Shown here: piece after piece, positions 1 through 42,722 of the stretch | Position numbering within the stretch: position 1 is the first letter of the stretch | Layout of the letters: each line of letters begins with the position of its first letter | Source of the DNA: a virus | Strand: one strand, 5' to 3' | Virus record (IMG/VR): IMGVR_UViG_3300025325_000051 | Location: 1-42,733 of that record | Length of the DNA stretch: 42,733 nt | Made by a program: the position numbers and the translations under genes | Notes under the pieces: generated by a model | Databases searched by the model: none | Told to the model about the DNA's origin: nothing | The model's input: only the letters and a program-made list of their open reading frames with translations

Positions 1-15
1 ATCTCCTACTTAAAA

Positions 16-1785
16 TTATAGTTGTGCATCTCTCCAAGCACCACCAGTAAAAATTTGAATTCTAAAATTTGAAGTGTCAATAACAATAGGAACATATCCT
101 GCTATAGCAGTAGGAACTCCTGTAGGAACGCCTGCACAAGTAGGTAAATATATAAATCCATTTGTAGCTGTAGTAAGAAGTAGCCCTGCTCCAGCAGCAA
201 AATTTCTACTATTATCCCAGAAAGCACAAATATCAGGTGTAGCATTGAAAAGAGCACTTCTATCGGAAGAATCTGACCCAAGACCTCCTATAAGGACTCC
301 ACTACGTCTTATTGCATACATAATCAAAGAAGCTGCTGCTGCAACTCTATTTGATTCAATAGGTCTAGCTGTTGCTTCAAATCTAGCAGTACCAGCTGAA
401 TTATATAATACAGATTCTGTGCCTGTAGGACCTATTTGAAATCCTCTAAGAGCGCTTGTTGCAAAACGCATCCTGAAACGACCTGCACCTTTAAATTCTG
501 ACCTACCAAATACTGCTAAATCTGTAGTACTATTTAATATTGACATAGTAGATGGGTCATCTACTTCAACTGAAGCCCCATTTAAATGATTATTATTAAT
601 AGAAGTAATATCAGCACTACTAGGACCAGTTTGATATAAAGTAGTATTTGCTTGAATCCAAGAACCTACAACAGTTAGTTTACCTGTGCATAAAATAGCT
701 CTATCTGAATTAATTGAAGTAACTTCTGTCATTGTATGAACAAAACCTTGAGAAATAAAAGAAGTCGCAAAATCACTAACATAACAACCTTGAAAATCTG
801 CTCTATCAACGAATCTTGCTGGAATTAAACTTATATCTCCAAGCTGTATGCCAACACCCCCTGCTACTCCAGATCCTTGTCCTATGATTCTACCAGCACC
901 TATTCTTATACTTACAGTGCTATAAGGAATATATATTCCTCTAAAATATCCATCTATTTCATATCTATCTACAAATAAATCTCTTGCTGTTAAAGGAGGT
1001 ACTGAACTTGTTATAGCTATACCTGATGTAGAAGTAAGACAATCTATCTTAAAACCAAATATATTATTATATCTAGAATTAGCCGCTGGAGTATTAGCAA
1101 GAGTTATAGCATTTCCTACTACTGGAGTGTATCTAAGAACAGTAGCTACTACACCAGCTCCAAGAAGAGAAACATTACTTGGAACTGTTATACCTGTATG
1201 TCTATATATTCCTGGTGGGAATATTACTTGTGCACCATCTCCATCACTATTTGTGCCAGTATTAGAAGCTGCATCTATAGTTGCCTGGATAGCTGCCGTA
1301 TCGTCAGTAGCATTATCCCCTACTGCACCATAAACAAGTACTGAAAATCCTTGAAATCCAAGCACATCAAAATCATATTCGCATCCATGAGGAGATACAA
1401 ATGTAACTGAACCATCTTCATTATTTCTTATATAAGGCTCATCTCCTACTTTTTCTTCTACCCAAGTAGGTAAACAGCCTTTACAAAAAACACCAATTAT
1501 ATCATCAGATGCTATTGGTTCATCTACATTTACTAAAAAAGAATCATCATATTCAAATACATATTTAAAAGTATTACCGCCACATGCAGCATTATATTTT
1601 GAAAAAGTAACAAGGGATGCTTCTATATAACTTAAATTAAAAGGCTGCGATCCACTTGATTCAGGATCACATACAAAAGGAGCTAATAAAGAATTATCTT
1701 GAAGACAAAGTACTATATTAGATGGCAGGCATTCAATACAAGAAAGTTTAACTGAAGAACAATATCCAACTTGTTTAAGTGCCAT
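16..1785 (-). CDS. Tailspike: Cys-rich anchor plus pectate-lyase-like beta-helix
   Basis: 589 aa. Probably the receptor-binding or depolymerising tailspike. Residues 1-145 are a Cys-rich domain homologous to the whole neighbouring 144-aa protein (shared features: FEYDD, FCKGC, SPHGCEY), presumably the virion anchor. From about residue 147 the sequence turns into a pectate-lyase-3-type right-handed beta-helix: YGAVGDNATDDTAAIQATI, then FPPGIY and SNVSLLGAG. The C-terminal third is Gly/Thr/Ala-rich and fibre-like, ending in FTGGAWRDAQL. The start overlaps the stop of the upstream gene as TAATG, so the two are translationally coupled. The fold is inferred from motifs; substrate and catalytic residues cannot be read. 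Confidence 0.8.
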   Translation of the reverse strand: MALKQVGYCSSVKLSCIECLPSNIVLCLQDNSLLAPFVCDPESSGSQPFNLSYIEASLVTFSKYNAACGGNTFKYVFEYDDSFLVNVDEPIASDDIIGVFCKGCLPTWVEEKVGDEPYIRNNEDGSVTFVSPHGCEYDFDVLGFQGFSVLVYGAVGDNATDDTAAIQATIDAASNTGTNSDGDGAQVIFPPGIYRHTGITVPSNVSLLGAGVVATVLRYTPVVGNAITLANTPAANSRYNNIFGFKIDCLTSTSGIAITSSVPPLTARDLFVDRYEIDGYFRGIYIPYSTVSIRIGAGRIIGQGSGVAGGVGIQLGDISLIPARFVDRADFQGCYVSDFATSFISQGFVHTMTEVTSINSDRAILCTGKLTVVGSWIQANTTLYQTGPSSADITSINNNHLNGASVEVDDPSTMSILNSTTDLAVFGRSEFKGAGRFRMRFATSALRGFQIGPTGTESVLYNSAGTARFEATARPIESNRVAAAASLIMYAIRRSGVLIGGLGSDSSDRSALFNATPDICAFWDNSRNFAAGAGLLLTTATNGFIYLPTCAGVPTGVPTAIAGYVPIVIDTSNFRIQIFTGGAWRDAQL

Positions 1786-2219
1786 TAAGGTATTAAAGCT
1801 CCACTAAACGTATATTCACATCCATGAGGAGATATAAAAGTTATAGTACCATCACCATTATCTCTAAAATAAGATTCATTACCAATTTTCTGCTCTACCC
1901 AATTAGTTATACATCCTTTACAAAATGCTCCTATTATATCAGCAGATGTTAAAGGCTGAGAAGGGGCTAATAATAAAACATCATCATATTCAAAAATATA
2001 TTTATAAACACTAGTGCTGCAAGAACTACTGGATTTAGAAAAACTAATTAAAGAAGCTTCTATAATGTTAAAAAGAAAAGGAGTATCTACATCTGTTTCT
2101 GGGCAAGTAATAGGAGCTAATAATTCATCACTATCTAAACAAAGAATTACATTTGCTGGCAAACAGCCTGTACAAGATAACCTATTTCCTGAGCAATAAG
2201 TAACTGACCTAGTAGCCAC
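1785..2219 (-). CDS. Stand-alone paralogue of the tailspike anchor domain
   Basis: 144 aa, starting at GTG. It aligns end to end with residues 1-145 of the following tailspike, including nine Cys at matching places and the C-terminal SPHGCEY signature, but lacks a beta-helix. It may be an adaptor that shares the tailspike's binding interface, or a duplicated spike that lost its receptor domain. It lies after the capsid-gene terminator, so it needs read-through or its own promoter; only a weak GGGG ribosome site precedes it. Confidence 0.75.
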   Translation of the reverse strand: MATRSVTYCSGNRLSCTGCLPANVILCLDSDELLAPITCPETDVDTPFLFNIIEASLISFSKSSSSCSTSVYKYIFEYDDVLLLAPSQPLTSADIIGAFCKGCITNWVEQKIGNESYFRDNGDGTITFISPHGCEYTFSGALIP

Positions 2220-2238
2220 TTCTACCCCACAAAAGAGT

Positions 2239-2267
2239 AAAAGGGAGTAATTTCTTACTCCCTTTTT
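2239..2267 (-). terminator. Rho-independent terminator after the major capsid gene
   Basis: Twelve-base arms AAAAGGGAGTAA and TTACTCCCTTTT enclose a 4-nt loop that reads GAAA on the minus strand. T-runs occur on both sides, so it could work in both directions. It lies 9 bp beyond the capsid gene stop and separates it from the spike genes. Confidence 0.8.
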
Positions 2268-2275
2268 AAACTATA

Positions 2276-4117
2276 TTAACTACATTGTGTAGCAGTTGGT
2301 CCACCGCATGCAGGGCATGAAGCATCAGTTGCAGTCGGTACACAGACTGAAACAAGACCACCAACAGTATCACAGAATACTGTAGCACCGTAATCGACTA
2401 CCCAAGTATTAGTTGTGTAGTCAATACTTATAATGGTTACATCACTTGTAGTTCCATCACCATTTGTAATTGTGATAGTTTCACCAACATCACCCTTAAT
2501 TGGATTACTTAATACTAAGTCAACCCTGGTGTTATCAGTACAATTTGGACGGTAATCAATTATATTTGCAGAGCAACCTAATGTGTCATCACAGAAGATA
2601 GTTGTGAATCTGTCACAATTACCTAAATCAGTTCCTTGTGGGAAAGTGACTTCTACTGAAAGACTATCGGCTGATACTCCTGTTACAGTACCTGTTACAT
2701 AACCGCCAGTATCAATTCCAAATTGAATTTCATCAGTTACTACAGCAGTAGTCGGTACTGCTAAAGTAATAATATAACTATTTCCAGTTATTGGGTTAGC
2801 TGTAAAGCCAAGTATTAATGGGCAAGGACAAGTCACATCTGGTACTTCATTATCACAATCCACTGTTTCTGGAGGACATAATGGCTCACATAGCCATGTT
2901 GCCGCAAGATTAGGTTGTACACGTTCTACAAGTATTGCAAAGATTCCATCGCTATACTGTTGACTGATACCGATAGTAGCACTTGTAGCAAAATAACCAA
3001 GACGCCTAAATGGATCTTCCATAGTAAGTGGATTAATCCAAGCCCAATTATTAAAGAGACTAAATTCAGGACCAAATGAAGTATTTTGCCCTAAACTTTG
3101 TTCAGTCGGCATTACAAATATACTAAATGGAAATTTTCCATGAAGTATAAGTTCTTCATGAGTAGCTGCTTCATATAAAGGATTAAATCCTGTAAATGAG
3201 CCTACTTCCATTGGGATTTCATCTACAAAAGGAAGTACTTCAGTTGCTACACCTGTTACAGCATCTAAAATAAAACGTCTTGGGTAAAGCACAGGAGCTG
3301 CTATAAACATACCCCTAATAGTACTCATGAAATTATATTTACTTAGTAAATCATTGGCTAAACCAGAGAATCTTACATCTTGACGCAAATCCTGGTCATC
3401 TCTATACAATCTTCCAAGTAATTGATGTGAAGCTATAATTGAAAATATTGGTGATCCATTTACTACATCATAAGGAACACAATCTGGAATTTTTCTCATA
3501 TATTCATAGAAAAATTCAAGCATTTCAATATTTAATGTAGATAATCTAGCTGTTCCAGCAGGCCTATACACATACGGATTTTGTGTATTTGGTTTTGGTC
3601 CGCCTGAATCAACTACATATTTCTTAGCTAATTCAGTTAGAATGTTTTGACCAATATTAAGTTCTTTAAAGTAATCAACTTGTGCATAAAGATTTTCAAC
3701 TACTTTCGCAAAAACTTCTTTAAAATTTGAAGTAGTTTGAATCTCTTTAATACAATAAGGAGGTGATTTAAACTCCCTACTCATAAGGCTAGTTACTTTT
3801 CTCTCAATACCTAGTCCTGGAAAAGTCGTCCAGTTATAAGAACAATCTGGACCATCGCAGGGATCACAACCAGTGTTATTATTTAATTTCTTCCAAGCAG
3901 CAAAACCACGTTCAATTTTTGGTCTACCGCCCCTAACAATTAATTGCTGCATTTGAGTGCCACTACCTCTAGGCCACTCTTGAATTTTATAAAGGTCCCT
4001 CAACCAAACTGGATTAATAATTGATAAGTCTATAATTGCTTGTGAAATCGCAGGAGGTGCTGCTAAAAACGCATCTGATACTTCCTGTTCTGTAAGATTG
4101 CATTCTGCTACTGGCAT
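2276..4117 (-). CDS. Major capsid protein (probable)
   Basis: 613 aa from the ATG at 4117, which has GGAG 7 nt upstream; an in-frame TTG at 4132 contains that GGAG and is rejected. Identification rests on position (portal, scaffold-like gene, then this), its own promoter and terminator, and a capsid-like middle region (ARLSTLNIEMLEFFYEYM, RGMFIAAPVLYPRRF). The last 190 or so residues are a beta-rich, Thr/Val/Asp-rich extension with about 14 Cys, perhaps an Ig-like surface domain. The Cys content is unusual for a capsid protein. A large tail protein is the alternative. Confidence 0.65.
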   Translation of the reverse strand: MPVAECNLTEQEVSDAFLAAPPAISQAIIDLSIINPVWLRDLYKIQEWPRGSGTQMQQLIVRGGRPKIERGFAAWKKLNNNTGCDPCDGPDCSYNWTTFPGLGIERKVTSLMSREFKSPPYCIKEIQTTSNFKEVFAKVVENLYAQVDYFKELNIGQNILTELAKKYVVDSGGPKPNTQNPYVYRPAGTARLSTLNIEMLEFFYEYMRKIPDCVPYDVVNGSPIFSIIASHQLLGRLYRDDQDLRQDVRFSGLANDLLSKYNFMSTIRGMFIAAPVLYPRRFILDAVTGVATEVLPFVDEIPMEVGSFTGFNPLYEAATHEELILHGKFPFSIFVMPTEQSLGQNTSFGPEFSLFNNWAWINPLTMEDPFRRLGYFATSATIGISQQYSDGIFAILVERVQPNLAATWLCEPLCPPETVDCDNEVPDVTCPCPLILGFTANPITGNSYIITLAVPTTAVVTDEIQFGIDTGGYVTGTVTGVSADSLSVEVTFPQGTDLGNCDRFTTIFCDDTLGCSANIIDYRPNCTDNTRVDLVLSNPIKGDVGETITITNGDGTTSDVTIISIDYTTNTWVVDYGATVFCDTVGGLVSVCVPTATDASCPACGGPTATQCS

Positions 4118-4149
4118 ATAAAGCTCCAACAAGAAAAAATTAAAATAAT

Positions 4150-4177
4150 ATTATACTGTGTAAAACACAGTTGATAA
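4150..4177 (-). promoter_or_regulatory. Capsid-gene promoter with a palindrome in its spacer
   Basis: On the minus strand TTATCA (4172-4177), a 16-bp spacer and TATAAT (4150-4155) predict a start near 4143, giving a 26-nt leader with a Shine-Dalgarno. The spacer is almost entirely a palindrome, ACTGTG TTTTA CACAGT (4155-4171), placed as an operator would be. This palindrome differs from the CAATCA operators elsewhere. The rest of 4178-4330 is AT-rich, with a weaker GCCTA/TAGGC inverted repeat. Confidence 0.55.
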
Positions 4178-4330
4178 TTTAACTATTTTTCCCTGCCTAG
4201 CTTTACGTAGCCACCGATTTAGGCTGGTGTCCTTATTTTGTAAAGTAGACTAACTTTAATTCTTACTAACGTAAAGAAATAACGTAATTACAGGATATAT
4301 TAAAATATTAAAATAACGCAATAGGTTATT

Positions 4331-5674
4331 TTAAAATCTACTTCTTTTAGATAAAGTACTTTCTAGTAAATTAGCAGCAGCACTTTCTGCTGGATTTTCT
4401 GGAGTTTGTCTAGGAGAAACATTTCCAACACCAGGAGCACCTCCTCCAATTGGAGGTCTGATGTAATTAGTAGTACGTTTAACATTTTTTTCTAATTCAT
4501 TAATTGTTTGTACGGCAGCCTCTCTAGTGTCAATTGAATTATAGGAGCTTATAGCATGTAAAGTCATCCTGGCTAAAGCATGTGCTAATTCAGAAGGAAG
4601 GTCTTTTAACCCTAAATCTCTTAAACCACTTACTAATTTTTGATATTCAGTTCTAGCTTTCTCTACAACTGGCTTTATATAAGTATTATTATATTCAGTA
4701 TCATTTTCTTTAAATATAAGTTCTTTAGCTTTACCTTCTTTTTTTATAAAATCGAGAGCGCCGTCCCAAGAACTCTCAGCTTGTTCATGTATCTTATTTT
4801 TTCTATTAACTTCTAATGATTCTGATAATTTTGTACTTTCTAATTGTAAATTTATTAAAGTTTCTGTTGGTTTATTTTCTGCTTCTTTAGCTTCATGCTC
4901 TATGTTTTTTACTTTATCTATTAATTGTTTTACTTCTAAAGCACCTACATCATCAAAATGATCACTAAGAAATCGATTAATCTCAGCTCTGTTATTAAGT
5001 GTAAGAACTTCAGCCATTACATCTTCTGGAATACTATAATCTTTTGCTATTTCATTTATTTTAGTTTTTACTTCAGTTATTGGTGTTATAAAATTATCTA
5101 CGTATTCTTTAGAAGTTTTTAAATTTACTATTTTTTCATATTTTTCTAAGTCTGCTATTCTTTGTTCTTTTTCTTTTAATAATTTTTGAGTAGCTTCTGG
5201 GACGGCTTCTCCTTTATTATATTTTTCTAAAGTTTGTGTTAATGTATATTTATCATTTTCAATTTCTTTTAATGTTTTTGATGTTTCTTTAAGTTTTGTT
5301 CTAAGTTTTTTAAAGTTTTCTCCTGTTGAATTATCTGGTAAAATATCTAATTCATCATCTTCTTTAACTTCTATTTTTTGAGGAGTGGTTTCTATTGAAG
5401 GTGTAGTAACTGCAATTTCTTTAATTTCTTCTTTTAGTACTTCTTTAATTTCTTCTTTTGGCTTTTGTATAATTTCAGAAGTTGCAGAATTTAATAGTTC
5501 ATTAACACTTATAGGTTGTGTATTTGGAGCAATTTGTGGCGCTATACTCTTAGAATTATTTAATATAAACTCTAAAGGACTATTGCCGTCCTTTAAATTT
5601 TGAAGTATAGAAGCAGCATCTTTTCCAGGACTATGAATTGATGTAACTTGGCTTGGTGTTGTTTCTGATGGCAT
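4331..5674 (-). CDS. Scaffold-like coiled-coil protein
   Basis: 447 aa, very rich in Lys and Glu. It has a low-complexity N-terminus (residues 1-110, with EEIKEVLKEEIKEI), a long predicted coiled coil (about 120-340), and a Pro/Gly patch with a basic end (TLSKRSRF). Placed directly before the capsid gene and after the portal, it fits a scaffolding protein whose C-terminus contacts capsid subunits. No protease motif is seen. The start overlaps the upstream gene by 44 bp. Confidence 0.6.
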   Translation of the reverse strand: MPSETTPSQVTSIHSPGKDAASILQNLKDGNSPLEFILNNSKSIAPQIAPNTQPISVNELLNSATSEIIQKPKEEIKEVLKEEIKEIAVTTPSIETTPQKIEVKEDDELDILPDNSTGENFKKLRTKLKETSKTLKEIENDKYTLTQTLEKYNKGEAVPEATQKLLKEKEQRIADLEKYEKIVNLKTSKEYVDNFITPITEVKTKINEIAKDYSIPEDVMAEVLTLNNRAEINRFLSDHFDDVGALEVKQLIDKVKNIEHEAKEAENKPTETLINLQLESTKLSESLEVNRKNKIHEQAESSWDGALDFIKKEGKAKELIFKENDTEYNNTYIKPVVEKARTEYQKLVSGLRDLGLKDLPSELAHALARMTLHAISSYNSIDTREAAVQTINELEKNVKRTTNYIRPPIGGGAPGVGNVSPRQTPENPAESAAANLLESTLSKRSRF

Positions 5675-6002
5675 TTATTTCTTCCTTAGTTAAATATCCT
5701 TTTTCTTCTGCTAAGTCTAAAGCCCCATAATCAGGAGACAGCATAGCACCCTCCCCTAATTGCTGATCTAAATATAGTTTTTTAAAATTAAATAAATCTT
5801 CTAAAGCTTCCATATAACCAGCACTTCTTGCTGCTTGAGTAGCAAGAACTTGGACATTTTCTCCTATACCAATTATTCTTACTCGACCTTTTTCTTGTAA
5901 AAAATCAAATATTCCTGATTGATAAAGTTTACTCATGCCGTCAAGATAAAGAACTAAAAATCCTTTATCTTCTTTTATGCTTTTTAACTTATCTATAATC
6001 AT
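5631..6002 (-). CDS. Unknown virion-module protein, 123 aa
   Basis: Not recognised. An alpha/beta N-terminus (GFLVLYLDGMSKLYQ, RVRIIGIGENVQ) is followed by a helical C-terminus (GYLTKEEINAIRNN). It overlaps the next small gene by 4 bp at its start and the scaffold-like gene by 44 bp at its end, so it is part of the head operon. It may be a minor head or head-completion protein; that is only from position. Confidence 0.6.
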   Translation of the reverse strand: MIIDKLKSIKEDKGFLVLYLDGMSKLYQSGIFDFLQEKGRVRIIGIGENVQVLATQAARSAGYMEALEDLFNFKKLYLDQQLGEGAMLSPDYGALDLAEEKGYLTKEEINAIRNNTKPSYINS

Positions 6003-6187
6003 GCGACAGGAACTTTTTCATCAATTGCTGTTGCTTTTGCTACTAATTCATCAATTTTTGCTTGAACTTCTGCTGGAATACCAACATTAGCTAAAGCATC
6101 TTTTAACTCTTGAACAGTAACTAATAAACTATCAACATCAACACCAATATTATTAAGATGTGCTTCTAATTCTTCTAATGTACTCAT
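5999..6187 (-). CDS. Small coiled-coil protein in the head operon
   Basis: 62 aa beginning MSTLEELEAHLNN. An upstream in-frame start at 6253 is rejected because AAAGGGA sits at proper distance before the ATG at 6187. The protein is one amphipathic helix region (LLVTVQELKDAL, VQAKIDELVAKA) and is acidic. Function unknown; its position between portal and scaffold suggests a virion or assembly role. Confidence 0.6.
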   Translation of the reverse strand: MSTLEELEAHLNNIGVDVDSLLVTVQELKDALANVGIPAEVQAKIDELVAKATAIDEKVPVA

Positions 6188-6249
6188 TATTTTAGTTCCC
6201 TTTAAAATATAATTTATAAATCTAATTCTATACGATATTTTACAAAATC

Positions 6250-6507
6250 TCATGCTGCTAATTTAATATTTTTAGTAAGTTCTATTTTTCTAAAAAATTT
6301 ACTAAATATTGATGCCAACTCAATCTTAAAGTTATTATCATCTAGTACATTTAATTCATTAAAATTAAATAAAACTTTAGCAGGAGAATTCATATCTTTT
6401 AAAATAATACCTTTTTCATTATCTATAAAATCGTAACAAATAAAAAGTTCACTACATAGCCTAGCAGCATTAACTCGTATACTTTCTTCAAAAATATAAT
6501 TATTCAT
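6250..6507 (-). CDS. Unknown small protein after the portal gene
   Basis: 85 aa, not recognised. No Cys-pair or nucleotide-binding motif is seen; the C-terminal half is predicted helical (FKIELASIFSKFF). Its start is 2 bp beyond the portal stop, so it is probably translated together with the portal. Confidence 0.55.
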   Translation of the reverse strand: MNNYIFEESIRVNAARLCSELFICYDFIDNEKGIILKDMNSPAKVLFNFNELNVLDDNNFKIELASIFSKFFRKIELTKNIKLAA

Positions 6508-6509
6508 AA

Positions 6510-8975
6510 TTATTGCAGCTCAATATCATTTGGAGAAATCGTTGCGCCTTGAATAGTATTAATATCTCCTCTAAGTTCTTCAGTTGACCTTTCGTCAAGC
6601 TTTGATTTATTATCAATTATTTTGTTTGAATTTTCAAGATGTATTTTTAATCTTTGATTATCTGCATCCATTTTAACTTTATCACGCATAACATCTGCCC
6701 TGTTCTCATTAGCTCTTGCTGCCCTAGTTACTTGGCTTTGAATTTTAAAGTCTTTTCTCTTTTCATCTTGAAGAGTTGTAAATTGATTTAACTCTTCTTC
6801 ACTCATAGCTTTTTGCTGATTTTCTTGATCTTTCTGACGTTGCTTTAACTCTGCTTGAAGCATACTAGAAGCATTTTTACGGTTTAAAGTAGCATATTGT
6901 TTAAATTGATTATAAGATTGTGCTATTGACTGTACAAAATTACGATTAAATGGACTTCTTTGAAGTGCTTGAAAATGTTCATCTACATGTGGAAGTAATA
7001 CATTAAATATTTTATCAGCTTCTACAGGATCTGTTTGCTGCTGTCCTAACTGCTCAATTGTATCCTTTGCTAAAGCCATATGAGTTATAAAATGAGAACG
7101 ATGTTCGTTATCAAGAGAAAATACTGGAGATTCGCCTTGCCGCATTGCTATATTTTCTAACCCCGCTAAAGAAGCTCCACCTGCCATTTCATCAGGAGTT
7201 TCATTTTCTGAAGTAAATGCTTCCACTTCGTCTTTGCCCATAGTAGCCATAACATACTTCCTCTCATACCAAGCACTAGCTTTTGGACCGAAATTAGCAC
7301 TAATTGGTCCAAGTTCTTGAAGTCCCATAAGAAGTCCTAATGTAGAACCGTCTCCTGCAACACGAGTCGCTTTAACATCAAGTTGTCTTGGAAGACCCCA
7401 TTCAGATTCATCTTTTATTGAGAACATCTCTTCTGGAACACCATCTTCTAAACATCTGTCTTTCCATTCTTTAGCATACTCATAACCTGGATAGCCTTTT
7501 TTAGAATGAAGCATTTTTGCTACCATATTACGAATAACAATATCAAATTGGGAATAAAAATGAGCAATATTATGTTTAAGTACTCCAAATTCACGGTAAC
7601 TTTCCATCCTGGCTTGAGTAGGTGAAATTGAACCATAATTCCTATCAGGCACTCCTGGATCGTCCCCTGAATTTGCAGTATTATATTGAAGTTTTTGATT
7701 AATATATTGACTAGCACCAATAAGTTGACTGATGTTTGAACCAAAATTATTCTGAACAAATTCAGCAGTTCCAATATTAGTAGGCGCTCCTGGAACAAAT
7801 CTAATTGCTTCAATATCTTTACTACCAGTTGCAAGAGATTTTAAGAAAATAGTACTCGCCCATTTAGCACTATCTACAATTGAGCAATCTAACTGCATCA
7901 TAGCTTGGCAGCCTGCAAATATTTTATGTCCAAGACCGCGGTTAGAATGTAGCGTAAATTCGCCAGGACTAGCTGTAAATATCACTAATGCTTCCTGAAT
8001 TTCTTTATATTGTTTATCAACAAAATATAAAAAGTTACCATGGTCGTATACTGAATCAAATAAATAGTGACTAACACCGCTTTTACCATCACTATTTTCA
8101 TATTCTTGCTGAAGAAGTGATACTAATCTAACTGAATCTGTAAATAATCCATCGAAACGCAAATCACCATTTTGAAGTCTAAGTTGTAAATCCATTAGGT
8201 TTATAATTTCCTGCCCTCTATCTTTTACATAGCGATTAGCCCTAAAAAGTAAAAACTTCTCTAATTCTTCTATATTCCAAGGGCTTTCTTTTTTTGAAAC
8301 GTCTTTAAATTCATTATAAACTTCAAATAAATACTGCACTGTAAAAGTAGTTTCTACAAAAATTGAAGTAAGTCTTTCAACATCAGCTTGAGCTTGGTCA
8401 GTTATAAAAAATCTTGATAATTCTACAGTTCGCCACCTCCAATCTCTTTCATCAGGCCAAATTACAGGAGAAAGTCCAAATTTAATTATCTGAGCACTTA
8501 AAGTATTTACTTGAGTATAAAAACTAGGCCACTTTCTAACTACATAGTCCCAATTTTTAGCCATAGTAGCAGCTACTTTTGGAGCTTCTGGATTCATATC
8601 ATGAATATAAAATTTACATAAAGTTTCTGCTTCATTAAGTAAATTCCAATAAGCTAAAGCACCTCTTTCATAAAGTGCCCGACCATCTAAATTATTAAAA
8701 TTTGATATATGAGATAATCCGTGTCTATCAAGTTCCACTGGATTATAAGGAGGATTTCCAGCAATAAGTCCTTCAATTCTAGCATAAAGTTCAATTCTTC
8801 TAAGGGCTTCAAAACGATATTTATAATAAAGTGTTTTTGCGGCAGTTACAGTTTGAATTATATTAATTGGAGCTTTAAGTTTTCCGTCTTCTTCTCTAGT
8901 AATTTGACCGCGGAGACCGTCAGTTGAAGATTGAATCGGCACTGATTTTTCAGGCTGATTTTCTTTCTTTGCCAT
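6510..8975 (-). CDS. Portal protein (podovirus-like)
   Basis: 821 aa. Forms the head-tail connector through which DNA passes. Evidence: the length, the place after TerL and before scaffold and capsid genes, an alpha/beta N-terminal half, a central region typical of podoviral portals (PTQARMESYREFGVLKHNIA, then FYSQFDIVIRNMVAKM), and a long Gln/Lys/Asp-rich helical C-terminus (about 690-810, with MRDKVKMDADNQRLKIHLEN) as in the barrel and tail of long portals. The start overlaps the upstream gene by 26 bp. Confidence 0.75.
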   Translation of the reverse strand: MAKKENQPEKSVPIQSSTDGLRGQITREEDGKLKAPINIIQTVTAAKTLYYKYRFEALRRIELYARIEGLIAGNPPYNPVELDRHGLSHISNFNNLDGRALYERGALAYWNLLNEAETLCKFYIHDMNPEAPKVAATMAKNWDYVVRKWPSFYTQVNTLSAQIIKFGLSPVIWPDERDWRWRTVELSRFFITDQAQADVERLTSIFVETTFTVQYLFEVYNEFKDVSKKESPWNIEELEKFLLFRANRYVKDRGQEIINLMDLQLRLQNGDLRFDGLFTDSVRLVSLLQQEYENSDGKSGVSHYLFDSVYDHGNFLYFVDKQYKEIQEALVIFTASPGEFTLHSNRGLGHKIFAGCQAMMQLDCSIVDSAKWASTIFLKSLATGSKDIEAIRFVPGAPTNIGTAEFVQNNFGSNISQLIGASQYINQKLQYNTANSGDDPGVPDRNYGSISPTQARMESYREFGVLKHNIAHFYSQFDIVIRNMVAKMLHSKKGYPGYEYAKEWKDRCLEDGVPEEMFSIKDESEWGLPRQLDVKATRVAGDGSTLGLLMGLQELGPISANFGPKASAWYERKYVMATMGKDEVEAFTSENETPDEMAGGASLAGLENIAMRQGESPVFSLDNEHRSHFITHMALAKDTIEQLGQQQTDPVEADKIFNVLLPHVDEHFQALQRSPFNRNFVQSIAQSYNQFKQYATLNRKNASSMLQAELKQRQKDQENQQKAMSEEELNQFTTLQDEKRKDFKIQSQVTRAARANENRADVMRDKVKMDADNQRLKIHLENSNKIIDNKSKLDERSTEELRGDINTIQGATISPNDIELQ

Positions 8976-9552
8976 TTATTTCCTTTTTTTGCCAACAAAA
9001 ATGAGGTAACTTTTCTACTTCTTCTTTAGTTAAGTCCAGCTCACCACTATAAAATACTTTTGCTTTTAAAATGCAGCTACAGATTTCACAAGAACCAAGT
9101 TCATCATGATACTTAGACCTCTTTTCTCCTATAGAATGTAATGCTATCTCATCTGTCCATTTAACGAAATTACCTTTATCTGGAAATATATTATAAGGGC
9201 ATTTTATACATATTTCAGCTCGTGCATCAGCTACTTCTTGTGTAACAAATTTCTTAAAAGCCATTTGTTTAAGAAGTGCCAAACCTCCTTTAATATAAGA
9301 AAGTACTCCTCTTTGTAACTTATTATTTGTTTCACACATACCAGAATTCATTGGCAATTTACATTGATAATTATCAAGCACCGCATCAAGTAAATCCAAC
9401 TTAGAAAGTTTATTTTGACTTCGATAAGAAACAATCATTTGGACTAGTTCTTTTCTAGAGTTAGCTTTATACTGATGTTGAGTATCTGGATCTATAAACA
9501 CGTGCTCTTTAGAGCCTTGAAAGGGCTTAAAAGTTAAGAAGTTGATTGGCAT
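8950..9552 (-). CDS. Cys-cluster (zinc-ribbon-like) protein at the head of the virion operon
   Basis: 200 aa. First gene of the leftward virion operon. The C-terminal half has paired cysteines: CIKCPYN, then about 40 residues later CEICSC, and a final HFCW, consistent with a zinc-binding treble clef or ribbon. Such proteins next to terminase and portal genes occur in other phages, but I cannot name the role; DNA packaging or early head assembly is a guess. No Shine-Dalgarno precedes the ATG; the predicted promoter start is 1 nt upstream. Confidence 0.65.
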   Translation of the reverse strand: MPINFLTFKPFQGSKEHVFIDPDTQHQYKANSRKELVQMIVSYRSQNKLSKLDLLDAVLDNYQCKLPMNSGMCETNNKLQRGVLSYIKGGLALLKQMAFKKFVTQEVADARAEICIKCPYNIFPDKGNFVKWTDEIALHSIGEKRSKYHDELGSCEICSCILKAKVFYSGELDLTKEEVEKLPHFCWQKKEINGKERKSA

Positions 9553-9559
9553 ATAACTG

Positions 9560-9589
9560 ATTATAAAGATTAACCTAATGAGTAAGCAA
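9560..9589 (-). promoter_or_regulatory. Leftward virion-operon promoter, nearly leaderless
   Basis: Minus strand TTGCTT (9584-9589), 18-bp spacer, TATAAT (9560-9565). The predicted start is about 9553, one base before the ATG at 9552. The -35 box lies within the first codons of the divergent TerL gene. Only 25 bp separate the two divergent genes. Confidence 0.5.
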
Positions 9590-11452: not shown

Positions 11453-11696
11453 TTCTTTTATTAAGTTCTTTTTTTATAACAGTCTTCATTTTGGATTTAA
11501 TATCATTAATTAAACTTTCTGGATGCACTATAAGAGTGCCGTCCTGCAATTCTACACCATGAGCACGGTCTGAGGTAATAAGATAATGTTTAAGATAGTT
11601 TATATTTATATTTAAAACACTAGCAGCTTTCTCTTTTGAATAGAATTTTTCAAGCTTAATACGCTTTAAGCGTGGGCAACGCTTATAAAAAGCCAT
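11433..11696 (-). CDS. Small HTH/excisionase-like protein
   Basis: 87 aa from the ATG at 11696, which follows the upstream stop by one base (TGAAATG), so the two genes are coupled. It contains a possible DNA-binding helix pair (YSKEKAASVLNININYLKHY) followed by a short hairpin (GVELQDGTLIVHPESL), similar in layout to MerR or excisionase folds, then a very basic tail. Function unknown; a small-terminase or regulatory role is possible next to TerL. Confidence 0.55.
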   Translation of the reverse strand: MAFYKRCPRLKRIKLEKFYSKEKAASVLNININYLKHYLITSDRAHGVELQDGTLIVHPESLINDIKSKMKTVIKKELNKRIKRKGI

Positions 11697-11697
11697 T

Positions 11698-12009
11698 TCA
11701 ATCAATTGGGTTAATGAAATCGCTCTTGAAGCTGATACTTTTAGCACCATATTGCTGCATTAAAATGTTGCGTCTTTCTTTAATCGCATTAAACGTAGCG
11801 GCTGAGAGCTTACACACTTGTCCAATAGTAGTTACTTTGCCCCAAGCAGCATGCATAGCATGTAATATCCCATTAGCAAATCTTAGATCTGCCTCAACAA
11901 TATCTTCTATGGTAGAATCACGATGCACAGGAAGCGGCTCTTCAATACTAGCTAACGGATCATCTAAGTCTGTTTCTACTGGTATTAAAGCCATAGTTTC
12001 CTTTGACAT
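11698..12009 (-). CDS. Unknown protein, possible small terminase subunit
   Basis: 103 aa. An acidic N-terminus (residues 10-40) precedes a helical region (WGKVTTIGQVCKLSAATFNA, then IKERRNILMQQYGA) that could be a DNA-binding and oligomerisation segment. Position next to TerL makes it or its coupled neighbour a candidate TerS, without direct sequence proof. The predicted promoter start coincides with its ATG, so the mRNA would be leaderless. Confidence 0.5.
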   Translation of the reverse strand: MSKETMALIPVETDLDDPLASIEEPLPVHRDSTIEDIVEADLRFANGILHAMHAAWGKVTTIGQVCKLSAATFNAIKERRNILMQQYGAKSISFKSDFINPID

Positions 12010-12015
12010 AGAAAC

Positions 12016-12045: not shown

Positions 12046-12046
12046 T

Positions 12047-12583: not shown

Positions 12584-12592
12584 GTGCATATT

Positions 12593-13996: not shown

Positions 13997-13999
13997 TAT

Positions 14000-14104: not shown

Positions 14105-14105
14105 C

Positions 14106-19828: not shown

Positions 19829-19900
19829 GGTTTAGTAGCAAAGTGGTAATGCATTGGATTGCAAACCCAATATTCGTGAGTTCGATTCCCACCTAAGCCT
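19829..19900 (+). tRNA. tRNA-Cys (anticodon GCA)
   Basis: Complete cloverleaf: acceptor GGTTTAG/CTAAGCC, D arm GCA-AAGTGGTAA-TGC, anticodon loop TTGCAAA with GCA at 19861-19863, T loop TTCGATT. The unpaired base after the acceptor is T, as expected for tRNA-Cys. Two stem positions are A-C mismatches: the pair next to the anticodon loop and one in the T stem. CCA is not encoded. Cys is abundant in the capsid and tailspike proteins, which may be why the phage carries it. Confidence 0.92.
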
Positions 19901-36276: not shown

Positions 36277-36490
36277 ATTTTTAATTGAATCAATAGAAGA
36301 TGAAGAAAGATTAGAAGCCATTATACGTGCTGAAGACCTTAAATATGCTTTAAAAGAAGTTATAGGAGAAATAGATAAATTAGCTAAAACGTATTCTATG
36401 AGTTTACTAGGTGAAGCTATAGTAGAATGTCAAAAAAAATGTTATAATATAGTAGAGAATTTAGAATTAAAATATTTTGTTAATATTTAA
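36260..36490 (+). CDS. Unknown acidic helical protein, 76 aa
   Basis: TTG start with AAGGA upstream, overlapping the nuclease end by 17 bp. Helical and acidic (FLIESIEDEERLEAIIRAED). Overlaps the opposite giant virion gene by 11 bp, leaving no space for a terminator. Confidence 0.5.
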   Translation: MKTKLEFLIESIEDEERLEAIIRAEDLKYALKEVIGEIDKLAKTYSMSLLGEAIVECQKKCYNIVENLELKYFVNI

Positions 36491-39400
36491 AATATTTAAT
36501 TTTTGCATTACGTCTTGCTTCTTTAGTCATTTTTTCTATTTCATCTTGTAATTTTTCACCAGTTAATTTTTTATTCATAAGTCTATTTATACCTTGTTTT
36601 ATCTGTGGTCCAGCTAATTTAGTAAGTTCATATATTTCATCATAAGTAAGAACATCATAAGCTGCTCGACCTAAAGTTTCTACTCTTTGTTTTTTAAGTC
36701 TTTCTTCTTTTATCTCTTGCACAGCACTTTTACCTGAAATACCAATTGACGTATTAGTTCCCATTTGAGGCACATAAGCACCGTTTTCTACTAAAAATTT
36801 CCACTCTGGATTTACTGTTTTAGTAGTAGCAAATCTGCCAGCAATTGGAGTTACAAAAGTAGATAATGCGGGATAATCTTTTAAAAATTGATAAGTTTCA
36901 ATTGGTTCGCCAAAAGCATTAAGTGCTGGTTTACCAGCATATCCTTGAATAAAGGGCAGTCCTCTAACTGTAGCTGCTAAAAATGATTTTGGGTCAGTTT
37001 CAAATGCGTCAGTAGTTTTTGCTATATCATTTAAAAGTCCTTTAAAAGGTATAAGTGATTTTGTTGGATTAAGAACTAAATCTCTTGGAGATTTTTCACC
37101 ACGAATAGTATCGACTAAATTAGCTGCTCCTTTTAAAAAGCCAGTGTCAAGTACTACTTTACCTACATTTGTAAGACCTATTAGAAATTTTTCTCCTGGA
37201 TCTTTTTTATTAAAGGAAGGACTATACCTATAAGCATCATGAAGTTCTCCGATCCAAGCTAAAAGCGGCGCAAGGGGTGTTTCTGAATATCTTAAATAAG
37301 TATCACCTATTTTAATTGTATAAGGTTTAAATCCAGCACTTTTTAAAGTAGCAGCTTCACCTTTATTTGTCGGACCTCTAGCATATATAGAAAATTTAGG
37401 ATCAGGATCATCTAAATATTTTTCAGCTTCTTTATAAATTACAGCTCCTAAAGTAGTTCCTATTATGCCAGCACCTAATCTTTGAAGTCTTTCTTCTGGT
37501 CCAAATGTAATTCCTGATGTTTTGCCTCCAAGTTTTTGCTGCATAAAATCAGTAATATGTTCACCAAGAGCTGCTCTTGCTATTCCAATAGGAGAAAAAT
37601 CTAAACTTTGTGAAAGCACATTTGAAACTACATCAACAAATGGAAATATAATTTTAAGGGGCGATATATATTCCATACCAGCTTTAAGCATTTTAGCAAT
37701 ACCTCCTAAAGAACCTGCTGGTGGCTCAGTGAAAGTAATTAATTGCCCAAACCTTTTTGATATTTCTTTTATAGCTTCTGAACGTAAATTATCAATAATT
37801 TCATAAGCTCTTAAGTTAACATCTCTATCTTTAAATTTAAGTCCTGAAGCTTCCCATTCACGAGTAGCTTGTTCTTTCGCGTTAATAAATTCATTAGTTG
37901 AATTATGAAGTTCTTCAGATATTTTAACTCTTAATGCTTCACCACGAAGTCCTTCTTGTTTAAGTGCACGTTTTGTTGCAAAATAAGCTTGTCCTTCTTT
38001 TCCAGTTACATAGAAAAAAGCATCAGCACTATTCATAGCTTTAAAAACAAATGATAATTTATTATTTAAAAAGTTTAAAGGTTTAGCCATTAAATTATTA
38101 AATAATTTATTCTCAAAACCAGTTATAGGTATTATTGTTTTACCTAATATTCTATTTTCATATTTACCTGAAATTGGATATTTTCCAGTAAAAACTCCTT
38201 TTGCAGATTCAATTGCTTTTGGTGCTGCTTTGACAATACCTTTAATAAATGCATCAAAATTTTTAGGATTAGTTATAGCAGTAGCTAATCCTCTTCCAAA
38301 TAAGTTCATACCAGAGCCAGCTATATTTATAGTTTGAGTGGAAAGACCACTTAACATATTAGCATACCAATAATATGAAAGTGCTTTAGAAAGTGGTGCT
38401 TTTATTTGAGTAGAAATTAAATTAAGTGCTTCTCTTGTAAGAGCATCGACAACTAAATTACTTGTTTCTTTAATTTCATTAGTTGGTATTTTTGCTTCAG
38501 TGAATACTTCTTGTATTTTATTATGTATAGCTTTTATTTGCTCTTCTAGTTCAGGAGGTATTTCAAAATCTTTACCATTAAATTTTTTAAGATCTCGTTT
38601 AAACTTTTTAAGCATGCTTTCTCTACTCATAGAACTGAAAAGAGTAAAAGCTTGTACGCCTTGTCCAAGACGAGTTCCTTCTTCTGCCATTTTACCCACT
38701 AAATCAGCTTCCTTTGAAGTAAGTGCATCTATAGATTTACCTTCTTTTTTAGAAGTTTCAATCTGTCTTCTAAGTTCATTTATAATTTCAATACCGTAAG
38801 CAGTTCTATCTTGATAACTTAAATTATTATCAAAATCAGTTGCTTCATTTATATTTTCATCTATAGTTTCTGGTTTAATTTTTTCTCTAAAAAACTTAGC
38901 AGCTTCTTTAGGGCTTTTTGGTTTATAAGATTTTTTACCTATTTTTTCTGCTGTTTCAGCAGTCGTACTTTCTGCTTCCCGAACACGTTTAGCAAATTTA
39001 CGTTCTTTTTCACCTTCTTTAAATATTTTAGTTGGTTCTTTTTCTGGAGGCAATGTTTCTAAAAACTCTTTACCACGTGTAGTATCAAAATAGTCATTTA
39101 ACCAATTTTGTATAGATTCGCTTGGTCTAAATGCATTTTTAAGTCCTGTCCAAAGTTCTTTAAATTTTTCTGCTATATTTTTATAAAAGCTATCAGCTAA
39201 AGTAGCTGGTCTTTTTTTTGGATTAAGTAAAAATTCAGAAACATTATTTGCAAAATATTCAGATTGATGTAAAAGATAGGATTTTTCTTCAGGAGTTAAA
39301 CTATTATAAGGCCTAGTATCTCCCTCAAAAATACTATCTGGTCCTATTATTTGAGATGCCCACTTACTTACAGGATCGTTTAAATTGAGTCCTCCTATAG

Positions 39401-42400
39401 CTTTAGCTAAGTCTTTAGATACAGCATCTTTCATTTTAGGAGAAGCTTCTTTAAATGCACTAGTTTCAAGTACGTGTCCTATTTCATGAGAAGCTACTCT
39501 TGCTGATTCATAATTAAGATCTCCTTTACCTAATATAACAATTCCTTTGTCTCCTACAGTTTTACCAGCTCCTAATAAAGTTTTTGGAGTAAATTGTTTA
39601 GTAACTTCATCTACAAATTTTAATTGTTCTTCTGATAAATGTTTTCTAAATTCAGGATTATTTATATCTTTAAGAGTAGCAAAAATAGTTTCTGGAAGTT
39701 TTAAAGCATGTGCCCAATAGTTAAGTAAATTTCTAAATTCTGGTTTAATTTCATCAGAATACATAGCTCCAGTTAATTTAGATCTTTTCATAGCTGGAAT
39801 TTCTTCAGCTATTTTAGGAACTTCTATAGTCTTTTTAAATTGAAGCGGTTTTTCTATTATTCCTTTTTCTACACTTGGTATAAAACCACGTTCAGCTTCT
39901 GTACTTATAATCCCTTTAGCTGTATTTGCAGCATCTATAAAATAATCCATACCATTACTAAGTGCTTCACCTTTTTCATTTAATACATACCATTTTTTTT
40001 CAAATGGATAAATATAACGTTTACCTTTTTTAGTTTCTATGATTGCGCCTTGCTGCTCTCTACGAACTTTTTTAGCTATTTCTTTTTCCTGAGATACTCT
40101 TTCAAGTTCTCCAATTTCTTTAGTAATAATTAAATCTTTAAGTTCATTTTCTTTAGCTTTAATATTATTTAAATAACTTGGTCTACCTATTTGTTTAATA
40201 TTATCATTTACTAATTTAAGTTCAGTTTTTAATTCAGATAAATTATTTTCTAAAGGATGTTCTTTTAAAAATGTATTTATAATAGCTACTTCATTTCTAA
40301 CATCAGCTAATCTAGATTTTATAAGAGCTTTATTTGCTCCTTCTTTTTTAGAAGATCTTTTTAAAGTGGTCACCTCTTTAATAAGTTCTTGTCTTTTAGG
40401 TATAAGCTCATTTACAGTACCAATAATTGCTTTAGTTTGTGGTTCTAACTCTTTTATTTTTGTTTGAAGTTCAGTTCTTCTTGCTATTAAATTAGGTACT
40501 TCCTCTTGTTTTGGTATAACTGCTAATTCTTTAGAAAGCATTTCTATACGAGGAATAGTTCCTTCTGGTGCTTCGCCTGTTATTTCTTCTGGTACGTGTG
40601 TAGTTTCTTTAGTAACTTTAAGCCTTCCATCTGGAAGTATTTCTGGTACATAACCAAAATTAGCAACTAGTTCAGGATCTACATCTGAAGGAGATCTAAT
40701 TATAAAAGTTCTTTCCATATCAGGAGAATTTTGAAAGTCTTCAAATGATTTTGCAAGTCTTATCTGTTCATCAGGTTGAGGTAAATCTAGTGCATGTAAT
40801 TTTGTTCCTGCTTCAATTGGTGTAGGGTCTTCTGGATTATAAGGAAGTAATTTCTTACCTTCTGCTGACCAAGGAAGTTCTCTTGTTTCAGGAGCTGAAA
40901 GTGCTTTTTGTGCTTCAGGCACAGGAAAATCTTTATCTAAAACTTCTGGTCTAACTTCGTATTTTGAAGTAAAAGGATAAGTAACTGCACCAGCTATTCC
41001 CATAGCTAAAGCTGCTTTACCTGTTTCTTTTAAAGAAGTTACATCTTTATTAATTGCAGCACTTACTCCTAAATCTTGTACATATTTTTGAGCAGCACCT
41101 GATGCTCCCATTATAAAAGCACCTTTTCCTGCTTGAGTGGCTATAGCTTTAGCTCTATTTACTGGTCCAAGACCTTTTATCCATGCTTTACCTCCGCCTG
41201 CTACTATAAAGTCTCCTAATGCTCCAGCAAGTACTGAAGGTTCGGCAAATAAAGCAGCTTTTAAAGCTTCGTTGTCAGTTACTCCTTCTTCTTTAGCTTG
41301 AAGATAGGCACTATTTGCTGTAAGTAATACATTTTGACTTATACCAAAAGCTACTGCTGCACGAGGCATATTAGCCGCTTGAAGAGCTTTGTAAGGAGCT
41401 ATAAAAGAAAGTACATTTCCTACTGCTCCTGTCCATTCGGCTTGAAAAGTAGTAATAGGGCGACCATATTCATCTCGCCTTATATAACCTTTATCATCTA
41501 CAGAATAGACTGTGTTTCTAGCTGGATCTGGTAAAAGTTCTGAAGTTTTATCTATCATTTTAGCAAAATCTTCATATCCAGCTAATCTGAAAGGTGCTGC
41601 TGCCATACCTGATAAACCACTTACAAATCCTTTACCAACTAATGCTGCTGTACTAGTTCCCTCTGAAAGTGCAGTTCCTACTAGTCCTCTATTTCTATAT
41701 CTTGAAGCTGTTTTTTCATTATCAATAGCCGCATCTAAATAACCAATAATGCCGTTTCCAAGAAGTATAGGATCATAGCCACTAGATCGTAGCATTTCTA
41801 ATTGTTTATTTTTCCAAGTATTTAATAATTTATCTGGATCTTTTTCATTACCCGTAATTTCTGGTACAGAATTTATAAGTGATCCATAATTAGGCTTTTC
41901 ATTAGGCATAGCACTATCCCAAATTTCAGTTGAAAGTTTTTGAATAGTATCTCTAGCTTTTTTATTCCAAAAAGTTTTTGAGTCATAAACTCTTTTAAGA
42001 ACTTGCATTGACTGAGTAGCACTTAATGTATTAAAAGCAGGATCACTTATAATTGGATCTAATACTTTTTTTAAATCTTCTTCTGTACCTAATGTTTCAC
42101 CAGAACTATAAGAATTTAAAGTATCTTCTTTTGAAGCATATAATTTTGATTTTACAGATGGTACATATTCTTGAGTTATATCTGGTAAATATGCTTTAAT
42201 ATCATCAAATGTTATATTTTTAGCATCTTTTATAGAATAACCAGCTTTTTCTATTGCATTGATTACAGCAGGACTACCTGCATTATAAGCAGCTAATGCT
42301 AAATCTTCATTTCCTGAAAAACGTGTAATTTCATCTAATAATATATTTGCCCCAATATCTACATTTTCTTCTACATTATAAGGGTCTTCTCCTCCACCAT

Positions 42401-42722
42401 ATTTTTTCCAATTGGTAGGCATTATTTGCATAAGTCCTGTTTCACCAGAAGTTCCTTTAGCATTTGGGTTAAAACCTTCTTTTGTACCTGATTCTTGCTT
42501 TGCTATAGCTTTAAGTAAACTAGGTTCTAAATTATATTTATAAGCAGTTTCTTCTAAAGTAGTTTGGATAGGATCATTACTTATCGCTTCTTCTGTAGTT
42601 GAAATTTGAGTAGTAATAGGGCTTCCTTCCACTGAAGATACTGTATTTTGAAAATCTCCTTCAAAGTTTGTAACAAACTCATCAGGTGACAATAATTCAA
42701 CACTTTCCTCTCCATTAGCCAT
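36480..42722 (-). CDS. Giant virion protein with lytic transglycosylase and zinc-peptidase-like motif
   Basis: 2,080 aa. Residues about 58-160 form a soluble lytic transglycosylase domain: YKYNLEPSLLKAIAKQESG (catalytic Glu77), GLMQIMPTNWKKYGG, DLALAAYNAGSPAV. Around 720-900 is a long coiled coil. At 1079-1083 HEIGH is a zincin-type HExxH (ARVASHEIGHVLE). Several hydrophobic stretches follow (MLSGLSTQTINIAGSGMNLF, GAGIIGTTLGAVIY). Comparable to podoviral internal core or ejection proteins, which cross the wall and membrane with the DNA. Its ribosome site AGGAG lies at the start of the window, so the gene follows the tailspike on the circular genome. Confidence 0.8.
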   Translation of the reverse strand: MANGEESVELLSPDEFVTNFEGDFQNTVSSVEGSPITTQISTTEEAISNDPIQTTLEETAYKYNLEPSLLKAIAKQESGTKEGFNPNAKGTSGETGLMQIMPTNWKKYGGGEDPYNVEENVDIGANILLDEITRFSGNEDLALAAYNAGSPAVINAIEKAGYSIKDAKNITFDDIKAYLPDITQEYVPSVKSKLYASKEDTLNSYSSGETLGTEEDLKKVLDPIISDPAFNTLSATQSMQVLKRVYDSKTFWNKKARDTIQKLSTEIWDSAMPNEKPNYGSLINSVPEITGNEKDPDKLLNTWKNKQLEMLRSSGYDPILLGNGIIGYLDAAIDNEKTASRYRNRGLVGTALSEGTSTAALVGKGFVSGLSGMAAAPFRLAGYEDFAKMIDKTSELLPDPARNTVYSVDDKGYIRRDEYGRPITTFQAEWTGAVGNVLSFIAPYKALQAANMPRAAVAFGISQNVLLTANSAYLQAKEEGVTDNEALKAALFAEPSVLAGALGDFIVAGGGKAWIKGLGPVNRAKAIATQAGKGAFIMGASGAAQKYVQDLGVSAAINKDVTSLKETGKAALAMGIAGAVTYPFTSKYEVRPEVLDKDFPVPEAQKALSAPETRELPWSAEGKKLLPYNPEDPTPIEAGTKLHALDLPQPDEQIRLAKSFEDFQNSPDMERTFIIRSPSDVDPELVANFGYVPEILPDGRLKVTKETTHVPEEITGEAPEGTIPRIEMLSKELAVIPKQEEVPNLIARRTELQTKIKELEPQTKAIIGTVNELIPKRQELIKEVTTLKRSSKKEGANKALIKSRLADVRNEVAIINTFLKEHPLENNLSELKTELKLVNDNIKQIGRPSYLNNIKAKENELKDLIITKEIGELERVSQEKEIAKKVRREQQGAIIETKKGKRYIYPFEKKWYVLNEKGEALSNGMDYFIDAANTAKGIISTEAERGFIPSVEKGIIEKPLQFKKTIEVPKIAEEIPAMKRSKLTGAMYSDEIKPEFRNLLNYWAHALKLPETIFATLKDINNPEFRKHLSEEQLKFVDEVTKQFTPKTLLGAGKTVGDKGIVILGKGDLNYESARVASHEIGHVLETSAFKEASPKMKDAVSKDLAKAIGGLNLNDPVSKWASQIIGPDSIFEGDTRPYNSLTPEEKSYLLHQSEYFANNVSEFLLNPKKRPATLADSFYKNIAEKFKELWTGLKNAFRPSESIQNWLNDYFDTTRGKEFLETLPPEKEPTKIFKEGEKERKFAKRVREAESTTAETAEKIGKKSYKPKSPKEAAKFFREKIKPETIDENINEATDFDNNLSYQDRTAYGIEIINELRRQIETSKKEGKSIDALTSKEADLVGKMAEEGTRLGQGVQAFTLFSSMSRESMLKKFKRDLKKFNGKDFEIPPELEEQIKAIHNKIQEVFTEAKIPTNEIKETSNLVVDALTREALNLISTQIKAPLSKALSYYWYANMLSGLSTQTINIAGSGMNLFGRGLATAITNPKNFDAFIKGIVKAAPKAIESAKGVFTGKYPISGKYENRILGKTIIPITGFENKLFNNLMAKPLNFLNNKLSFVFKAMNSADAFFYVTGKEGQAYFATKRALKQEGLRGEALRVKISEELHNSTNEFINAKEQATREWEASGLKFKDRDVNLRAYEIIDNLRSEAIKEISKRFGQLITFTEPPAGSLGGIAKMLKAGMEYISPLKIIFPFVDVVSNVLSQSLDFSPIGIARAALGEHITDFMQQKLGGKTSGITFGPEERLQRLGAGIIGTTLGAVIYKEAEKYLDDPDPKFSIYARGPTNKGEAATLKSAGFKPYTIKIGDTYLRYSETPLAPLLAWIGELHDAYRYSPSFNKKDPGEKFLIGLTNVGKVVLDTGFLKGAANLVDTIRGEKSPRDLVLNPTKSLIPFKGLLNDIAKTTDAFETDPKSFLAATVRGLPFIQGYAGKPALNAFGEPIETYQFLKDYPALSTFVTPIAGRFATTKTVNPEWKFLVENGAYVPQMGTNTSIGISGKSAVQEIKEERLKKQRVETLGRAAYDVLTYDEIYELTKLAGPQIKQGINRLMNKKLTGEKLQDEIEKMTKEARRNAKIKYFKY

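Follow-up and report, generated by a model that had tools for sequence, protein, structure and literature searches.

A stretch of viral DNA of 42,733 bases (31.7% G+C; IMG/VR virus record IMGVR_UViG_3300025325_000051, taken at its full length and referred to here as the window) encodes a capsid-like protein and tail proteins that are rich in cysteine (Cys), together with scaffold-like and ejection-type proteins that contain none (Table 1). The genes follow the order terminase, portal-like, scaffold-like and capsid-like. The large terminase at positions 9578-11452 matches phrog_2 (E 1.4e-15), which points to a tailed phage of the Caudoviricetes, and the names capsid, portal, scaffold and nozzle were assigned by gene order beside this recognisable gene. 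Searches of PHROGs, Pfam and the PDB gave no named homologue for the capsid-like, portal-like and nozzle-like proteins; one nozzle-like protein showed a weak match to phrog_20702, a PHROG of unknown function. The capsid-like open reading frame (ORF) extends from an ATG at 4117 to a stop at 2276 and is also readable from a TTG at 4132.

Two sister records, G001 (34,148 bases) and G002 (55,982 bases), overlap the window at 99.2-99.9% identity. Since G002 extends beyond both ends and places about 15.4 kb of additional late genes between that of the tailspike and that of a 2080-residue protein, the window is a fragment of a larger genome, and many relevant tail genes lie outside it. Queries with the capsid, anchor and terminase sequences matched, apart from near-identical sisters, a single distant genome, G003. 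Portal alignments recovered G005, G006, G008, G009, G010, G012, G013 and G014, as well as the short fragments G007 and G011, both without a capsid gene. All nine distant genomes possess the capsid gene, with 37-61% identity to the capsid-like protein of the window; together with the window species, which was read from G002, they form the ten-genome set used below. None of the capsid, anchor, terminase and portal sequences had a tblastn match among 50,697 annotated phage records, and the lineage therefore looks undescribed in that collection; a megablast search of window positions 1-20000 against phage records was likewise negative. Profile scans of genome contigs with the capsid and portal alignments returned no match, hence no host was found.

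The 20 Cys of the capsid-like protein are located at residues 6, 84, 87, 92, 122, 213, 410, 414, 421, 430, 432, 501, 509, 515, 526, 582, 592, 601, 604 and 612. Fourteen of them fall into residues 410-613, a C-terminal extension of 204 residues, and 11 into the last 190; the last 200 of the 613 residues hold 13 of the 20 (hypergeometric P 0.0026). A preliminary description of this DNA, made without database searches, had put about 14 Cys into roughly 190 residues of the extension. The richness is borne out, while the length was slightly generous, the true figure being 14 in 204. Conservation of these residues is pronounced. Within the first five genomes, 16 of the 20 Cys are invariant compared with 181 of 613 residues overall (hypergeometric P 3e-6), and nine of the 20 Cys of the window protein stay invariant across all ten. 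Twelve are kept in at least nine of the ten genomes, as opposed to 142 of 613 residues overall, and Cys is the best-conserved residue type of the protein in the five-genome and the ten-genome alignment alike. In the N-terminal cluster, C84, C92 and C122 are present in every genome; C87 is found in seven, is shifted by about one residue in two and is lost in G010. Histidine occurs at merely three of the 613 positions, none of which is invariant.

Table 1. Features of the window discussed in the text (type I, Cys-rich anchor module of about 140 residues).
Feature	Position	Strand	Basis
Major capsid-like protein, 613 residues, 20 Cys	2276..4117	-	Gene order; aligned in 10 genomes
N-terminal Cys cluster of the capsid-like protein, C84-x2-C87-x4-C92-x29-C122	3752..3868	-	
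C-terminal Cys-rich extension, residues 410-613, 14 Cys	2279..2890	-	
Predicted first six-stranded beta domain, residues 430-512, C432/C509 beside first/last strands	2582..2830	-	AlphaFold2
Predicted second six-stranded beta domain, residues 513-595, C515/C592 and C526/C582	2333..2581	-	AlphaFold2
C-terminal tail with C601, C604 and C612, all Cys in 10/10 genomes	2279..2332	-	
Stand-alone anchor domain, 144 residues, 9 Cys, type I module	1785..2219	-	
Tailspike, 589 residues: type I anchor, then pectate-lyase-like domain (PF12708, E 1.3e-12)	16..1785	-	
Type I Cys-rich anchor domain of the tailspike	1348..1785	-	52% identity to the 144-residue protein
Scaffold-like protein, 447 residues, 0 Cys, contrast set	4331..5674	-	Function by gene order
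Ejection-type protein, 2080 residues, N-terminal transglycosylase-like region, 0 Cys, contrast set	36480..42722	-	
tRNA-Cys(GCA), judged to lie outside the Cys-rich virion system	19829..19900	+	ARAGORN; Rfam RF00005

The distribution of Cys over protein classes was determined in the ten genomes from all ORFs of at least 90 residues, taken mechanically by position and including some wrong-strand ORFs. Capsid-like proteins contain 181 Cys in 6214 residues (2.91%), and the tail module, that is, the ORFs between the capsid gene and the gene taken for the adaptor, 825 in 41285 (2.00%; 0.89-2.54% per genome). An earlier hand-picked outer set from five genomes of the family, which omitted several tail-module ORFs, had given 1.94-2.63%. 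Portal proteins (55 of 8256 residues, 0.67%) and all other ORFs (1213 of 68111, 1.78%) contain fewer, and the scaffold (1 of 4479) and ejection proteins (3 of 35542) are nearly devoid of Cys, with four in about 40,000 residues for the two classes together. By our reading, two of the three ejection-protein Cys (in G009 and G012) even sit in N-terminal stretches upstream of what appears to be the conserved start. A 685-residue ORF of G010 with eight Cys (L068:5021-7077), which lies amid the Cys-free ejection genes and lacks a match in PHROGs, was counted among the other ORFs; it is possibly an inserted gene.

Eight podophages served as controls (T7, P22, N4, epsilon15, P-SSP7, phiKMV, Sf6 and Syn5). 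Their genes for portal, scaffold, capsid and large ejection proteins are arranged in a broadly comparable order, but their outer proteins contain only 0.44-0.96% Cys, and their capsid proteins have 0-2 Cys each, whereas 12-22 are found in the capsid-like proteins of the lineage described here. Their ejection proteins, at 0-0.19% Cys in all eight phages, are in turn similarly poor, and the scaffold is Cys-free in six of the seven phages in which one was classed, the exception being Sf6 with three in 294 residues. T7 gp13 (three Cys in 138 residues) and N4 gp53 (four in 885) were dropped from both control classes because their place is unclear, the N4 virion RNA polymerase was partly covered (2342 residues), and Syn5 gp42 (three in 174) was set apart. 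The Cys-rich outside is accordingly the peculiar trait of the lineage, while the Cys-poor ejected set is general; the latter looks like a rule among such phages, whose cause is perhaps the crossing of the oxidising periplasm.

These figures also bear on the simplest explanation, namely that drift or host composition raised the Cys content and that the residues have no special function. The non-virion ORFs of the family are indeed at 1.78% as well, yet the corresponding values of T7 (1.97%) and P22 (1.82%) are similar, so that the rest of the proteome is ordinary. Drift is moreover contradicted by the conservation across ten genomes, which makes Cys the most conserved residue type of the capsid-like protein, and by the near absence of Cys from the scaffold and ejection proteins of the same genomes. 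We regard this explanation as scarcely credible; the trait is real, conserved and probably functional.

The second site of Cys enrichment is the N-terminus of tail proteins. The preliminary description, which dealt with positions 1785-4117, had noted nine Cys each at conserved positions in the tailspike anchor and its paralogue. This holds: the 144-residue protein and the N-terminus of the tailspike, a gene that falls outside those positions (16-1785), are 52% identical, and the nine Cys that each has in the aligned stretch all stand in invariant columns. At least four Cys within a 50-residue stretch near the N-terminus are present in 43 of 116 tail-module ORFs compared with 22 of 355 elsewhere (odds ratio 8.9, P 1.2e-14). 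Three types of module can be distinguished. Type I is the 140-residue anchor, which was aligned from the window, G003, G005 and G006 with two copies each and retains four invariant Cys across all eight copies; one further type I module was recognised by eye in G013. Type II starts with MxCxxCG and runs into a shared domain, as judged by eye. Type III comprises 35 residues with the pattern C-x2-C-(x)-C ahead of a helix-like stretch that ends in L-C. A type III profile built from eight seeds of seven genomes detected two further genomes, bringing those above threshold to nine of ten, with the matches at the N-terminus; a 580-residue protein of G012 (L072:4172-5914) carries two of them in tandem at this position. 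The proteins behind the modules differ widely and include the pectate-lyase-like spike, collagen-like repeats (in G008) and glycine-rich or beta-rich sequences, the latter kinds assigned by eye. The modules would thus attach otherwise unrelated outer domains to the virion. The collagen-like tail proteins of G008 are two in number (L046:6479-7747 and L046:7749-9227) and bear short Cys-rich N-terminal tags. By eye, the product of window positions 24465-25439, whose start resembles a signal peptide, and a Cys-tagged tail protein of G002 (11119-12186) seem to share glycine-rich beta repeats.

When the capsid extension was submitted on its own to AlphaFold2 with ten sequences, two tandem six-stranded beta domains were predicted, with a mean predicted local distance difference test (pLDDT) score of 69.5 and 75-89 in the core. 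In this model C515 and C592 of the second domain occupy the places of C432 and C509 in the first, at an offset of 83 residues. The similarity of the two repeats in profile comparison is weak (P about 0.001, one comparison), and the alignment pairs C509 with C582 instead of with C592, the partner indicated by the strands. In fold comparisons each repeat resembles domain 2 of EF-Tu and the N-terminal barrels of V/F-ATPases with Z scores below 8. The resemblance to these six-stranded barrels may merely reflect a common arrangement, and no kinship is claimed.

Eighteen Cys sites of the capsid-like protein were followed through the relatives for losses, and a Cys within four residues of its aligned place was scored as kept. 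Joint losses concern C414 and C421 in G014, C87 and C501 in G010, and the set C432, C509, C526 and C582 in both G012 and G014. As the latter two genomes are sisters on a Cys-masked tree, the four-Cys loss is best read as an event on a single branch. Under a branch-length null, for which the loss events were placed on the tree by hand, the probability that no more than one branch shows an odd count of Cys losses is about 0.02. Loss mostly in pairs would favour disulfides and may be graded as supportive, not strong. The best single argument for strand-closing disulfides comes from combining this pattern with the model, in which two pairs appear to take the same place in the two domains and one of them has been lost as a pair.

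From the sequences and models together, it seems rather probable to us that the outer virion is locked by disulfides formed from the conserved Cys. These bonds would form when the particle has left the reducing cytoplasm. Within the extension of the capsid-like protein, the two beta domains would be stapled by C432-C509, by the equivalent C515-C592, by C526-C582 and by C414-C421, and the N-terminal cluster (C84, C87, C92 and C122) could be linked either to the extension, via C87-C501, or to an adjacent subunit. Tail and decoration proteins, among them the tailspike of the window, would be fixed to the particle through their Cys-rich N-terminal modules. Conversely, the scaffold must leave the shell and the ejection proteins have to cross membranes, and both are nearly free of Cys. 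We infer disulfides rather than metal, the timing of the bonds and the docking role of the modules from this set of observations. The idea of disulfide- or metal-stabilised particles, as put forward in the preliminary description, hence gains support from the conservation of the Cys, their loss mostly in pairs and the difference between a Cys-rich outside and nearly Cys-free scaffold and ejection proteins.

Several observations weigh against locking by disulfides. Neither a sulfhydryl oxidase (PF04777) nor a thioredoxin (PF00085) was found in the 11 records searched, so that oxidation would have to be spontaneous or driven by the host. The loss of four Cys on one branch leaves the partners within that set unfixed by co-loss, and C6 is lost singly in G008. 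The trait is also not uniform, as G014 has no type III match and only 0.89% Cys in its tail module. The full-length AlphaFold2 model of the capsid-like protein is unusable (mean pLDDT 39), which is too low for a check of the HK97 fold, and no sequence match in the PDB was obtained. Moreover, Cys-free ejection proteins had to be rejected as a feature specific to the lineage, all eight control podophages being nearly alike in this respect. Finally, the four Cys of the type III tag are spaced in a manner able to hold a zinc ion, and its nearest Pfam match, weak and below the cut-off, is Cys_rich_CPXG of the CPXCG family (E 0.016). A sub-threshold match to PF04777 in G008 contains stops and was taken as chance.

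A rival proposal is that the Cys bind metal, either zinc or iron-sulfur, and that the tags and the N-terminal cluster of the capsid-like protein are small metal-binding modules in a particle that is not linked by disulfides. The order C-x2-C-(x)-C ... C of the tags would suit such a role, as would the likewise fourfold C-x2-C-x4-C-x29-C of the capsid cluster, and the weak resemblance of a type III tag to Cys_rich_CPXG points the same way. Yet C414/C421 and C87/C501 were each lost as a pair with no other loss in that step, a pattern more in keeping with disulfides than with sites of four ligands; histidine is rare in the capsid-like protein, and type I and II modules have variable and often higher numbers of Cys. 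A purely metal-binding system thus appears rather unlikely to us. A mixed arrangement, with disulfides in the capsid beta domains and metal in the N-terminal tags, the capsid N-terminal cluster or both, would accommodate the fact that paired loss mainly concerns the C-terminal extension whereas the tags resemble four-Cys modules. We consider it less probable still, because linker proteins of the Agrobacterium phage Milano form disulfides through N-terminal Cys (see below) and the signs of metal are indirect. Jointly, the metal and mixed readings retain an appreciable, though minor, share of our expectation.

The preliminary description further connected the Cys-rich virion with a phage-borne tRNA-Cys(GCA) at 19829, which it took to suggest a Cys-poor codon or tRNA supply in the host; the phage gene would then meet a demand created by its virion. 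The gene itself is confirmed as well formed (Rfam RF00005, 59.6 bits, in addition to ARAGORN); besides the window species, its near-identical sisters G001, G002 and G004 carry it. No tRNA-Cys was found in any of the nine distant relatives, which have Cys-rich virions too (with 190 terminal bases of G013 and 1313 of G014 unread), and G003 has a tRNA-Ile call instead. Seven of these nine relatives also exceed the 1.26% Cys in the ORFs of the window species, and the non-virion Cys content of the family resembles that of T7 and P22. The supply hypothesis is therefore abandoned as very improbable, and the tRNA-Cys gene is probably incidental to the Cys-rich virion. Just after this gene, positions 20307-20549 and 20862-21104 form a 243-bp direct repeat (80% identical, gapless). 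Each copy carries a small Cys-rich ORF of 78 residues, with six and five Cys, respectively, and 25 of the 39 changed codons alter the residue.

Detailed accounts of disulfide-locked tailed phages that we found concern the Milano group. Cys makes up 1.4% of the Milano proteome and 2.1-2.4% of its structural proteins, and cryo-electron microscopy revealed a disulfide network that runs through capsid, decoration proteins, linkers and tail (PMC10491603, PMC10811340). The linkers LP1 and LP2 are bonded via Cys3/Cys7 and Cys6/Cys10, the short tail fibre is attached to the baseplate through Cys38, and dithiothreitol weakens the particles (PMC10491603, PMC10811340). Phage 7-7-1 is similar, with 2.58% Cys in four capsid proteins (PMC12796354). 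The present lineage shares with Milano, 7-7-1 and OLIVR4 its Cys-rich structural proteins (2.1-2.6% in theirs) and a capsid protein with several Cys, which in theirs take part in disulfides. Decoration and linker proteins of the Milano group are held by Cys close to their N-termini, and the Cys-rich N-termini enriched in the tail module here may serve a comparable attachment. The raised Cys content of structural proteins (2.91% in the capsid and 2.00% in the tail module, compared with 0.44-0.96% in the controls) and the conservation of Cys among relatives (12 of 20 capsid Cys in at least nine of ten genomes) are both of the Milano type. Milano differs in its contractile tail and proven disulfides, whereas in the lineage described here, with its putative disulfides, no sheath gene was recognised. 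Unlike in Milano, the Cys are located in a two-domain C-terminal capsid extension and in shared N-terminal modules. The capsid, portal and terminase of the window found no tblastn match in the 50,697 phage records, which are expected to include Milano. On present evidence the lineage would work like Milano, while membership in the disulfide-networked class requires observed bonds.

A more far-reaching version of disulfide locking may be considered, in which the module types I-III act as interchangeable covalent plugs. These would dock any receptor-binding, enzyme, collagen-like or beta-helical domain via disulfides onto a Cys-rich virion surface that becomes oxidised after lysis. The system, a general code for docking, would have arisen independently of Milano, and Cys would be kept from the scaffold and the ejected proteins so that these stay free to leave. 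We put this forward tentatively and hold it to be doubtful in its entirety. If disulfide locking is true, a second, apparently unrelated lineage would indicate that the strategy recurs, and its modules would offer a naturally occurring collection of short N-terminal tags by which proteins of very different kinds might be attached to a virion. The contrast between a Cys-rich outside and almost Cys-free ejected proteins forms a simple and testable rule on redox state and protein ejection. Literature searches on Cys-rich phage tails and virions and on Cys-free ejection proteins yielded nothing on the lineage or its modules.

Two further genes of the window deserve mention. Between terminase and portal (8950-9552), a 200-residue protein with eight Cys, and with eight to ten in the relatives, looks like a zinc-ribbon protein, for which no convincing family match emerged from PHROGs or Pfam. 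At positions 26223-26861, an exported-looking metalloprotease with the motif HELGHNLGAIHDD matches Reprolysin (PF01421) over the cut-off and has two homologues in G010 that are 25-34% identical.

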